A DNA stretch of 64,000 bases from Mariprofundus aestuarium (GTDB lineage Bacteria > Pseudomonadota > Zetaproteobacteria > Mariprofundales > Mariprofundaceae): contig NZ_CP018799.1 of assembly GCF_002795805.1 (NCBI RefSeq), forward strand, positions 2,163,001 to 2,227,000, given 5' to 3'. The translations under genes were made by a program, and so were the position numbers. A model generated the notes under the pieces. The model was not told the origin of the DNA. It saw nothing but the letters and a program-made list of their open reading frames with translations, and ran no database searches. Shown here piece by piece: positions 10,790-61,725 of this stretch; position 1 is the stretch's first letter, and the number at the start of each line of letters is the position of its first letter.

Positions 10790-11113
10790 TCAGACTGTGA
10801 ATGAAACACCGCAGCCGCAGCTGCCTTTCTTGTTCGGATTGAGATAAACGAATGCAGATGAAAGCACATCCTTCTGGAAATCAAGCTTAAGGCCGGCCAG
10901 AGCCCTAGTATAGGAGTCACCATCGACATAGAGAACAAAGCCATTAAAGGCCTGCTCAAGGTCACCGCTTTGCGGTCCGTCCACCGTATCCATGACATAT
11001 TCAAGGCCTGAACAACCAGCCTCCTTCACAGAAAGTCTTAGCCCTTTTTTTCCTGCAGCGGCGACAATCTCGCTGATACGTGTCACAGCCGATGTAGTCA
11101 GTTCAATATCCAT
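10790..11113 (-). CDS. iscA: A-type iron-sulfur cluster carrier IscA
   Basis: The 107-residue HesB/IscA protein has the three expected Cys: one in KEAGCSGLEY and two in GSCGCGVSF. The fold core LTTSAVTRISEIV and LDFQKDVLSSAFVYLNPN is also clear. It delivers Fe-S clusters to target proteins. The start follows AAGGTGG by five bases. It is 49 bases after iscS in the same direction and closes the short isc group. No iscU, hscA/B or fdx follows. Confidence 0.93.
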   Translation of the reverse strand: MDIELTTSAVTRISEIVAAAGKKGLRLSVKEAGCSGLEYVMDTVDGPQSGDLEQAFNGFVLYVDGDSYTRALAGLKLDFQKDVLSSAFVYLNPNKKGSCGCGVSFTV

Positions 11114-11162: not shown

Positions 11163-12299
11163 TTACGCGGTGATTCCGGCCATGCCTTTGAGTCGCTTAT
11201 CGGCACTCACCAGCGCCTCAACCAGTGCCAGTGCATCATCGCTGCTATTATCCGGGCCAAAGCTGACACGCAGTGAACTCCTCGCCTTAAGCTCGGAAAC
11301 CCCCATCGCCAGCAGCACATGCGATGGCTCGCGTTTCCCCGATGAGCAGGCTGAACCCGAAGCCACGGCAAACCCAGCCAGATCCAGTTGCATCAACAGT
11401 GTCTCACCATCGAGTCCCGGTAGAATAACCAGGCTGGTATTCGGTGTACGTGAGGCTTGCAGTGAAACCACTTCAGCACGAGGCAGGCGCTTGCCCAGCT
11501 CTGCCTCGAACAGGTTTCGCACCGCTTCGCAGGTTGAAAAGTCTACTTTGCCAAGTGCCGCAGAAAACCCTGCAATGCCCGGTACGTTCTCGGTTCCGGA
11601 ACGACGTCCGCGCTCCTGGCCACCGCCGGGTGCCAACTCTGTGAGCTTCACACCCCTGCGAACCAGCAGAGCACCGACACCTTTGGGGCCACCGATCTTG
11701 TGCGCGGAGAGACTCATGAAATCGATGCCCAGGTCATTAAATCGAACTGCTTTTTTGCCCAGCATCTGCACAGCATCAACCAGCATGGGAATAGAGGCTT
11801 TGCGGCAGAGCGCTGCCACCGCTTCAACAGGTTGCACCGCACCACTTTCGTTGTTGGCATACATCAGACAGACAAGCCGCGTCTCTTCATTGATAGCTGC
11901 CGCCATACTTTCGGCTGTAACGACACCGTCACCATTCGGACGAAGCTTTATCAGTTCCCACTCCGGGTTAGCAGATGCAAACGTCTCCAGAGGTTTCAGG
12001 ATAGCTGGGTGCTCAATAGCCGTTGTGACAATCCGGCCCGGCTTGCTTGTGGAAAGCACGCTGTGAATGGCAATGTTATTTGCCTCAGTTCCGCCCGATG
12101 TATAAACGATGCCGCCCGCCTCTGCGCCAATAAAGGCGGCAAGCTTGTCTCTTGCATCGTCAACGATCCGGCGTGCAGCCCTTCCGGCCCAGTGAAGACT
12201 GGAGGGATTGCCAGGCGCAGCATTTGCAGCTTCAACCATGGCCTCCAGACTTACCTTCAGCTGCGGATATGTGGCGTTACAGTCAAGATATCGATGCAA
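11163..12299 (-). CDS. iscS: Cysteine desulfurase (IscS/NifS family)
   Basis: The 378-residue PLP enzyme takes sulfur from cysteine for Fe-S cluster assembly. Motifs are TSGGTEANNIAI, the PLP lysine in SLSAHKIGGPKGVGAL, GGGQERGRRSGTENV, and the active-site Cys loop ASGSACSSGKREPSHVL. The start is a TTG with AAGGTG four bases before it; no better ATG lies in frame. The gene begins inside iscR, overlapping by 17 bases, so translation is coupled. It is somewhat shorter than E. coli IscS (404) and nearer NifS in the Cys loop. Confidence 0.92.
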   Translation of the reverse strand: MHRYLDCNATYPQLKVSLEAMVEAANAAPGNPSSLHWAGRAARRIVDDARDKLAAFIGAEAGGIVYTSGGTEANNIAIHSVLSTSKPGRIVTTAIEHPAILKPLETFASANPEWELIKLRPNGDGVVTAESMAAAINEETRLVCLMYANNESGAVQPVEAVAALCRKASIPMLVDAVQMLGKKAVRFNDLGIDFMSLSAHKIGGPKGVGALLVRRGVKLTELAPGGGQERGRRSGTENVPGIAGFSAALGKVDFSTCEAVRNLFEAELGKRLPRAEVVSLQASRTPNTSLVILPGLDGETLLMQLDLAGFAVASGSACSSGKREPSHVLLAMGVSELKARSSLRVSFGPDNSSDDALALVEALVSADKRLKGMAGITA

Positions 12300-12780: not shown

Positions 12781-12818
12781 ATGAACCTCCAGATACAATA
12801 ACCGCGTAAAAAACTCGG

Positions 12819-12850
12819 ATATTATAAAGCAGACCATTTTAGTCAAGTAT
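12819..12850 (-). promoter_or_regulatory. isc promoter with IscR type 1 operator
   Basis: On the minus strand the 25 bases 12850-12826 fit the E. coli type 1 IscR consensus at all but three positions (left half ATACTTGACT, right half GGTCTGCTTT). The -35 box TTGACT (12846-12841) lies inside the left half-site. A -10 box TAATAT (12824-12819) follows with a 16-base spacer; an overlapping TATAAT is an alternative with tighter spacing. The iscR start is 38 bases further on. The same left half occurs at 57787-57811. Confidence 0.8.
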
Positions 12851-53004: not shown

Positions 53005-53035
53005 AAAAAAAAGCACCCCGCCGAGGCGAGGTGCT
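53005..53035 (-). terminator. Intrinsic terminator of the cold-shock gene
   Basis: On the minus strand AGCACCTCGCC and GGCGGGGTGCT form a long GC-rich stem (one G-U), followed by eight T. It lies 37 bases past the stop of the cold-shock gene and 22 bases past the convergent HPP gene. Confidence 0.87.
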
Positions 53036-53071
53036 AATTATGCTTTAGTTAAAAACTAAAGTATGAAACTC

Positions 53072-53275
53072 TTACTGAGGATAAACGTTACGAGCCTGTG
53101 GGCCCTTCTGTCCGTCTTCTACTTCATACTCAACCTTCTGGCCTTCAACGAGTGACTTGAAGCCATCGCCCTGAATTGCGGAGAAGTGTACGAACACATC
53201 GTCGCCACCATCATCCTGTGCGATGAAGCCGAAACCTTTAGAGTCATTGAACCACTTAACTGTACCTGTTGCCAT
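53072..53275 (-). CDS. Cold-shock-domain RNA chaperone, CspA family
   Basis: The 67-residue protein has RNA-binding motifs RNP1 (KGFGFIAQ) and RNP2 ([10 protein letters not shown]) and the usual start [15 protein letters not shown]. It melts RNA secondary structure. The start follows GAGGA by nine bases. The upstream region is AT-rich with a TATAAT at about 40 bases before the start, so a promoter and short leader fit there. It could be any of CspA, CspC or CspE; no symbol is assigned. Confidence 0.96.
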
Positions 53276-53491
53276 TTTAAAAATCCTCGATTAATCTATT
53301 AATCTAATTATTATATAGTGCAAAACTGTTCATTTGAGATGTTTCAGTGAAGATAAATCAAGAAGAAACTTCTGAATCTGCCTAGAAAAACCACCAACAA
53401 TCATGTTCTGCGGAACGCACTGTATGTCAGCCGCAACCATTAAGCTAGCAAAAGATCAATACCGAAGTGTGGCAACATGCCGCTACGGCGA

Positions 53492-57561: not shown

Positions 57562-57589
57562 CCCTCACCGGCACTTACAAAGGAACATA

Positions 57590-57620
57590 AAAAAAGCCCC
57601 GCCGAAGCGGGGCTTTTTTT
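57590..57620 (+). terminator. Strong bidirectional intrinsic terminator
   Basis: A 7-bp GC stem GCCCCGC / GCGGGGC with the stable loop CGAA (57596-57613), flanked by A-run and a 7-base T-run. It ends the permease transcript and, read on the other strand, the microprotein transcript at 57642-57737. Confidence 0.92.
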
Positions 57621-57641
57621 ATCAATTTGTAATGGCTTTTT

Positions 57642-57737
57642 TTAAAGCAGAACAATCGCTGCCCAAAACGCTAGCGCTGTACCGCCCAAAACACCTGCCA
57701 AACCAGTAGCTTCTGTACCATCATGGGTTTCATTCAT
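57642..57737 (-). CDS. 31-residue single-helix membrane microprotein, likely IscR-regulated
   Basis: A 31-codon ORF that begins seven bases after a full AAGGAGG ribosome site. The product starts with a polar, acidic segment (MNETHDGTEATG) and ends with one hydrophobic helix (LAGVLGGTALAFWAAIVLL, residues 13-31) with small residues in a Gly-Ala spacing. No family recognised; size and shape are like small subunits or regulators of membrane complexes (for example oxidases). It has its own promoter with an IscR type 1-like operator (57787-57811) and its own terminator, so it is an independent unit. The ribosome site, promoter and terminator together make a real gene likely. Confidence 0.72.
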   Translation of the reverse strand: MNETHDGTEATGLAGVLGGTALAFWAAIVLL

Positions 57738-57778
57738 ATCTCGGCCTCCTTTTGACCATTAAGCCAAACGTTGTAAGC

Positions 57779-57811
57779 AAGATACAATACCCTATCAAAT
57801 AAGTCAAGTAT
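57779..57811 (-). promoter_or_regulatory. Promoter with IscR type 1-like operator in front of the microprotein
   Basis: On the minus strand 57811-57787 match the type 1 IscR consensus in both outer half-sites (left ATACTTGACT, right GGGTAT) with four mismatches near the centre. The -35 box TTGACT (57807-57802) lies in the left half and TATCTT (57784-57779) is the -10 with a 17-base spacer. The words ATAATACTTGACT are shared exactly with the iscR promoter at 12819-12850, and the -35 box sits 15 bases from the same edge of the operator in both. The microprotein start codon follows 41 bases after the -10. Confidence 0.65.
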
Positions 57812-61293: not shown

Positions 61294-61667
61294 CACGGAG
61301 TGGCCTGGACGGTCGCGTCGGGTGCTTGCACCCGCCGAGGAAAGTCCGGGCTGCACAGGGCAAGGCGCCGGTTAACGGCCGGTGAGGGTGACCTCGAGGA
61401 AAGTGCCACAGAAAACAGACCGCCTTCTGCCTCTTCGGGGGCCGTCGGTAAGGGTGAAAAGGTGCGGTAAGAGCGCACCGCCCGAGCTGGTAACAGATCG
61501 GGGCACGGTAAACCCCGCCTGCAGCAAGGCCAAATAGGAGAGCGCTAAGCGTGGCCCACGTTTGCTCTCGGGTAGGCTGCTCGAGCCTGCCGGTAACGGC
61601 AGGCCTAGATGAATGACCGTCTCCTCCCTCGGGAGAGACAGAACCCGGCTTACAGGGCCACTCCGTA
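61294..61667 (+). ncRNA. rnpB: RNase P RNA, bacterial type A
   Basis: The catalytic RNA that trims tRNA 5' ends. Seen in order: the P1 arm GGAGTGGCC, the conserved GAGGAAAGTCCGGGC (about 61338), GGTGAGGGTG, the CR core with GAGGAAAGTGCCACAGAAAAC, GGTAAGGGTGAAAAGGTGCGGTAAGAGCGCACC, CAAATAGGAGAGC, the conserved AGATGAATGACCGT region (about 61607) and ACAGAACCCGGCTTACAGG, then the matching P1 arm GGCCACTCC (61656-61664). The ends are set by P1; exact transcript ends may differ by a few bases. Confidence 0.96.
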
Positions 61668-61725
61668 TTTAATCCTGTCCGCTTTACCGCTAGCGTTGGC
61701 AAACGATGACAATCGAGGATCTGAT

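Follow-up and report, generated by a model that had tools for sequence, protein, structure and literature searches.

An IscR type 1-like operator precedes the gene of a predicted 31-residue membrane microprotein in Mariprofundus

What might a reading frame of 31 residues be doing behind a promoter that resembles the promoter of iscR? The question is posed by a locus in the window (the whole stretch of 64,000 nucleotides analysed here) from Mariprofundus, a marine iron oxidiser; the window's own genome (G000) is a single contig of 2,537,610 bp. A sequence-only reading had credited the tiny ORF, which we call MP1, with its own terminator and a full AAGGAGG site, and both AAAAGGAGG and a terminator stem are present (Table 1). 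The terminator is A-rich on its other side and therefore probably common to the convergent AI-2E gene, which neighbours MP1 along with HNH nuclease and oligopeptidase A genes. Computed from the sequence, the product has one hydrophobic segment, long enough for a single membrane span, a net charge of -3 and not one basic residue. It matches no Pfam or NCBIfam family above the curated cut-off and nothing in the phage and plasmid collections that we searched.

Table 1. Location of MP1, its signals, the iscR locus and the genes elsewhere that share the element (G000, the window's own genome; all other positions are those of the window).
Feature	Position	Strand	Remarks
MP1, 31-aa microprotein gene	57642..57737	-	reads MNETHDGTEATGLAGVLGGTALAFWAAIVLL; acidic N-tail and one predicted transmembrane helix
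MP1 Shine-Dalgarno AAAAGGAGG	57745..57753	-	7 nt ahead of ATG
MP1 -10 hexamer TATCTT	57779..57784	-	17-bp spacer from -35
MP1 -35 hexamer TTGACT	57802..57807	-	within operator left half-site
MP1 type 1-like operator	57787..57811	-	ATACTTGACT-TATTT-GATAGGGTAT, 21/25
MP1 intrinsic terminator	57587..57622	-	16-pair stem, then Ts
iscR promoter type 1 site 1 (comparator)	12826..12850	-	22/25
iscR promoter type 1 site 2	12798..12822	-	28 bp downstream of site 1, conserved across genus
iscR, 165 aa	12283..12780	-	three Cys and one His at E. coli cluster-ligand positions
IscS/NifS-type cysteine desulfurase gene	11163..12299	-	after iscR
IscA/SufA-type Fe-S assembly accessory protein gene	10790..11113	-	
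MP2, 46-aa single-pass microprotein MSKDKVFTEIKNLEKEFEHLIRDDDKVTTNIIIIAFAGVMLFVASL	G000:C1:1794888-1795097 (outside window)	+	behind TTACTTGACTATTTTGCTCGGTTAT
MP3, 35-aa single-pass microprotein	gene G000 1,046,747-1,046,851; locus G000:C1:1046747-1046924 (outside window)	-	behind ATAGTTGATTATTTTTCTCGGTTAT
sRNA candidate, intergenic, C-rich, terminator-ended	G000:C1:646459-646630 (outside window)	-	hairpin GTCTGGTGYC..GRCATCAGAC, loop CACCCTCCTCCCCTCCCTCCCC

Before asking how the locus is regulated, is there a gene to regulate? Protein searches found MP1 orthologs in three of the 22 other genomes of the genus that were compared (G008; G015, Mariprofundus sp. KV; G020, M. micogutta ET2) and nowhere else among 78 genomes of the class, which makes four carriers with the window's own. 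MP1 is therefore not core: it is absent from 19 of the 23 genus genomes, some of which are incomplete. A degenerate DNA pattern scanned across 84,980 species recovered only two Mariprofundus orthologs and four chance matches, the latter being other frames or larger proteins, and profile matches beyond the four genomes were weak or lay within larger frames. The orthologs share invariant NETHDG, GL, G and ALAFWAA blocks, small differences at the start excepted. Nucleotide variation affects 10 of 30 first, 10 of 30 second and 25 of 30 third codon positions (Fisher p = 6e-6), and because it is piled on third positions it points to selection on a protein gene; judged by this pattern, MP1 is a protein gene under coding constraint. 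The converse reading, in which the unit acts as a small regulatory RNA and its ORF is incidental, might appeal to the short, terminator-ended transcript that is predicted and to the sRNA candidate, which has a promoter of this kind at another place in the genome. We regard it as highly improbable, given the third-position bias together with the equivalent Shine-Dalgarno sites and near-constant length of the orthologs. The copies of MP1 lie in three genomic contexts, with a gene order common only to the window genome and Mariprofundus sp. KV and other neighbours in G008 and G020. No neighbour is common to all copies, so that nothing in the gene order points to a partner.

How unusual, then, is the element at the MP1 promoter? 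We scored sites as matches out of 25 to the published IscR type 1 consensus ATASYYGACTRWWWYAGTCRRSTAT (PMC6599224), a 25-bp imperfect palindrome laid out as two 10-bp halves and a 5-bp spacer. The two best scores in the window belong to the promoters of iscR (22/25) and MP1 (21/25); with these set aside the maximum is 19/25, reached at one place among approximately 128,000 position-strands. Column-shuffled palindromic consensuses gave a mean of 0.06 matches at 21 or above, against four (two sites on two strands) for the real consensus. When the type 1 pattern is run across the genome with up to three mismatches, iscR comes first (one mismatch) and MP1 second (two), whereas at three mismatches the scan yields chance matches, as shown by a reversed control. 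A promoter string shared by MP1 and iscR had already been claimed, and the 13-mer ATAATACTTGACT does occur exactly twice in the 2.54-Mb genome, in these two promoters, where about 0.08 occurrences would be expected by base count.

The two promoters are also alike in layout. The MP1 operator spans the -35 box and the spacer, and so overlaps the core promoter, and the iscR promoters of the genus are arranged in the same way, with a ATACTTGACT-AAAWN-RGTCGG-like site over the -35 box; the TTGACT of MP1 occupies the matching place in its operator, in line with what the sequence-only reading had proposed for the pair. A second site of the form ATATCCGAC-YTTTT-ACARGGTTAT follows 28 bp downstream in the iscR promoters of the genus; this adjacent site (12822-12798) had gone without mention in the earlier note. 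The IscR of this genome gives an Rrf2 match at 5.5e-39 and an IscR match at 4.5e-57, with a score of 191.6 against an NCBIfam equivalog cut-off of 207.6, that is, 16 bits below.

If the resemblance to iscR mattered, we might look for it wherever MP1 is found. Note that some of the loci we scored had been fetched for their resemblance to the motif and form a biased subset; unbiased tests are those at loci where the gene was found first, via protein or distal sequence. The MP1 orthologs are of this kind, and score 19/25 in G008, 20/25 in G015 and 20/25 in G020, with the operator in the same place: all three that keep the ORF also keep the operator, despite diverged flanks and different neighbours. 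The sequence-only reading had named an ORF kept in relatives that lack the operator as evidence against it, and the relatives show the opposite. Every one of the four MP1 promoters has AATAATACTTGACTTWTTT and a T-x-GG right half-site at a fixed register, and the invariant columns amount to 10 of 10 in the left half, 4 of 5 in the spacer and 4 of 10 in the right half, compared with 0 of 39 upstream of the operator and 2 of 33 in the leader. Shared ancestry means that such trials at orthologous promoters are not fully independent, yet the flanks have diverged completely. Of the palindrome claimed for MP1, the type 1 match itself stands at 21/25; GGGTAT as its near-perfect right half does not carry over as a general feature, since it is peculiar to the window species and the degenerate right half-site of the relatives preserves only T-x-GG.

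The element is not confined to iscR and MP1. A new observation is that type 1-like sites also precede an sRNA candidate and the genes of two further single-pass microproteins and, outside this species, mrp/ApbC. This last gene, which encodes an Fe-S carrier, is preceded by the TTTT-spacer form TACTTGACACTTTTACTCGGGAT in several other Mariprofundus species, and many Mariprofundus mrp/ApbC promoters read TTGACA-NTTTT-ACTCGGGATT. Within the subgroup of the window's species the mrp site is degenerate, and the mrp promoter of G000 has no good site (15/25), so that mrp counts in favour of the motif only for other species. The MP2 site (G000 1,794,887, plus strand) is the third -35-bearing site found genome-wide, and the MP2 ortholog in G008, found by protein, also has a site (19/25). 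MP3 emerged from the motif search of the genus and has relatives in G001 and G015; a further relative in G008, MSEVLSGSMDGIILGTLVCGTAVAFFLFVGGVI, found by profile search behind a 20/25 site, has the look of an intermediate linking MP1 to MP3. A profile comparison of MP1 with MP3 gave E = 2.9e-4 but a probability of just 41%, which makes common ancestry likely but not proven, and on sequence the two probably belong to the same family. At least 13 genomes of the genus have homologs of the sRNA candidate, which reaches the gathering score of no Rfam family; in the window's subgroup it is preceded by type 1-like sites scoring 20-22 of 25. An unbiased 21/25 comes from M. micogutta ET2, where the candidate was matched through its 3' part only. 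It could be a RyhB-like, iron- or Fe-S-saving RNA. A 27-residue hydrophobic ORF MKGHNLIVYTIVSGVISLSLIIKEMLH behind TTACTTGACTTTTTTGCTTGGTTTC (G016:C140:516) is a further microprotein candidate from the motif search, unproven because it occurs in a single species. Good-scoring sites at G013:C96 and G012:C22 were rejected, there being no convincing gene behind them.

These comparisons bear on a simple alternative, namely that the element is just a good sigma-70 promoter whose -35 box lies in a favoured context, and that IscR is inactive in the case of MP1. TTGACT is indeed the -35 box, and part of the left half would be conserved on that account. However, ATAATAC upstream of the -35 box and T-x-GG in the promoter spacer are conserved too, and the sites of the sRNA candidate retain ATACCYGA without a good -35. 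Moreover, among 1296 TTGA[CT] contexts, in DNA partly chosen by motif, the unrelated ones hardly ever exceed 18, and the iscR, mrp and microprotein sites are mostly at 19 or more. We therefore consider a promoter-only explanation unlikely. What ties the element to Fe-S assembly is that iscR and mrp, both Fe-S assembly genes, carry it. IscR becomes the natural reader of the element when this is taken together with the P. aeruginosa iscR type 1 site ATAGTTGACCTAATTACTCGGATAA, which has been shown to bind IscR, lies between -35 and -10 and has the same right half, -ACTCGG- (PMC6599224). Under the scoring used for MP1, the two type 1 sites of P. aeruginosa iscR, A and B, obtain 17 and 20 of 25, with ATAGTTGACCTAATTACTCGGATAA at 20/25, so that the MP1 site, at 21/25, matches the consensus as well as or better than they do; it resembles the E. 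coli consensus and P. aeruginosa operators both in its 25-bp plan of halves and spacer and in its overlap with the core promoter.

What would such an operator do? Type 1 sites are bound better by holo-IscR than by apo-IscR (PMC6599224). Two things suggest repression while clusters are plentiful, namely where the MP1 site lies, across the -35 box and spacer, and how type 1 sites are known to behave elsewhere: [2Fe-2S]-IscR would occupy that stretch and block RNA polymerase. Once clusters run short, through oxidants, oxygen or iron limitation, IscR would lose its cluster and repression would end. MP1 would then be produced alongside the Isc machinery and, in genomes that have them, the sister microproteins and the small RNA. 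It would insert in the membrane so that the short acidic tail faces one side, and a helix face of small and aromatic residues (GG..A.AFWAA..LL) might pack on a larger membrane complex and alter its activity. We infer IscR binding, the sign of regulation, membrane insertion and the existence of a partner from sequence, and consider it probable that MP1 is a stand-alone, single-pass inner-membrane microprotein under Fe-S control, repressed by holo-IscR, that modulates a larger membrane complex. IscR regulons described to date comprise mainly assembly and metabolic genes. Known type 1 targets (iscR, nfuA, fprB and others) are of these kinds, whereas the target predicted here is a 31-residue membrane protein, and searches of the literature on IscR with small proteins and on IscR in Mariprofundus turned up no such target.

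There are precedents for more than one kind of function. TisB and DinQ are single-helix membrane microproteins of about 30 residues that are controlled by LexA and released when a stress-sensing repressor is lost. MP1 is like them in size, in its single helix and in its proposed mode of release, under a different regulator; no similarity in sequence is claimed. Could MP1 be a membrane-active peptide of this type, which depolarises the membrane or makes it permeable on Fe-S damage, and slows growth? Being stand-alone, tiny, hydrophobic, tightly controlled, restricted to one lineage and present in several copies per genome, it fits a pattern of which LexA-controlled TisB is an example. Yet its net charge of -3 without a positive residue is unlike TisB-type peptides, and the invariance of its polar NETHDG tail hints at a specific partner. 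In addition, the plus strand between 57500 and 57950 holds no promoter-like site for an antisense antitoxin RNA, although consensus scans can miss promoters. A TisB-like role consequently strikes us as improbable.

Nor do we find much to recommend, though we would give it a small chance, the idea that MP1 belongs to a respiratory complex as a small accessory subunit, like CydX or the small subunits of cbb3/ba3 oxidases, and is made when Fe-S-poor respiration is needed. Its size, single helix and aromatic FW pair would suit such a subunit, as would an oxygen-limited iron oxidiser as host, and small oxidase subunits are often overlooked. MP1 does resemble CydX and other small oxidase subunits in size and single helix, but lacks the CydX motif YxxWxxGx15E/D (PMC4325964), having no Tyr and its W25 near the C-terminus, and also lacks linkage to cydAB, with AI-2E, HNH nuclease and oligopeptidase A genes as its neighbours; it has no Pfam or NCBIfam profile match, and no copy adjoins oxidase genes among the loci examined. 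Toxin-like and oxidase-subunit roles are thus less likely than modulation of a larger membrane complex. For the latter, MgtS, KdpF and AcrZ offer a parallel: they span the membrane once, are encoded alone or linked to a regulon, and adjust the working of a larger membrane complex. MP1 would be alike in these respects, and no sequence relation to them was found.

Taken as a set, the genes sharing the element invite a broader and distinctly more tentative proposal: the subgroup of Mariprofundus to which the window belongs may have a membrane branch on its Fe-S regulon (MP1, MP3, MP2, possibly MP4, and the C-rich sRNA), each with its own type 1 promoter, that jointly retunes membrane electron flow or iron traffic when clusters fail. 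They make a testable set, with one predicted switch, of three or more genes plus an sRNA candidate. Should IscR act directly on membrane microproteins, cluster status would be coupled to the membrane in an organism that lives on electrons from iron. Sharing of an operator can also reveal genes too small for annotation.

Elsewhere in the window, Rfam gathering matches mark a cspA-type thermoregulator leader (53007-53436, minus strand) and a bacterial class A RNase P RNA (61297-61668, plus strand).
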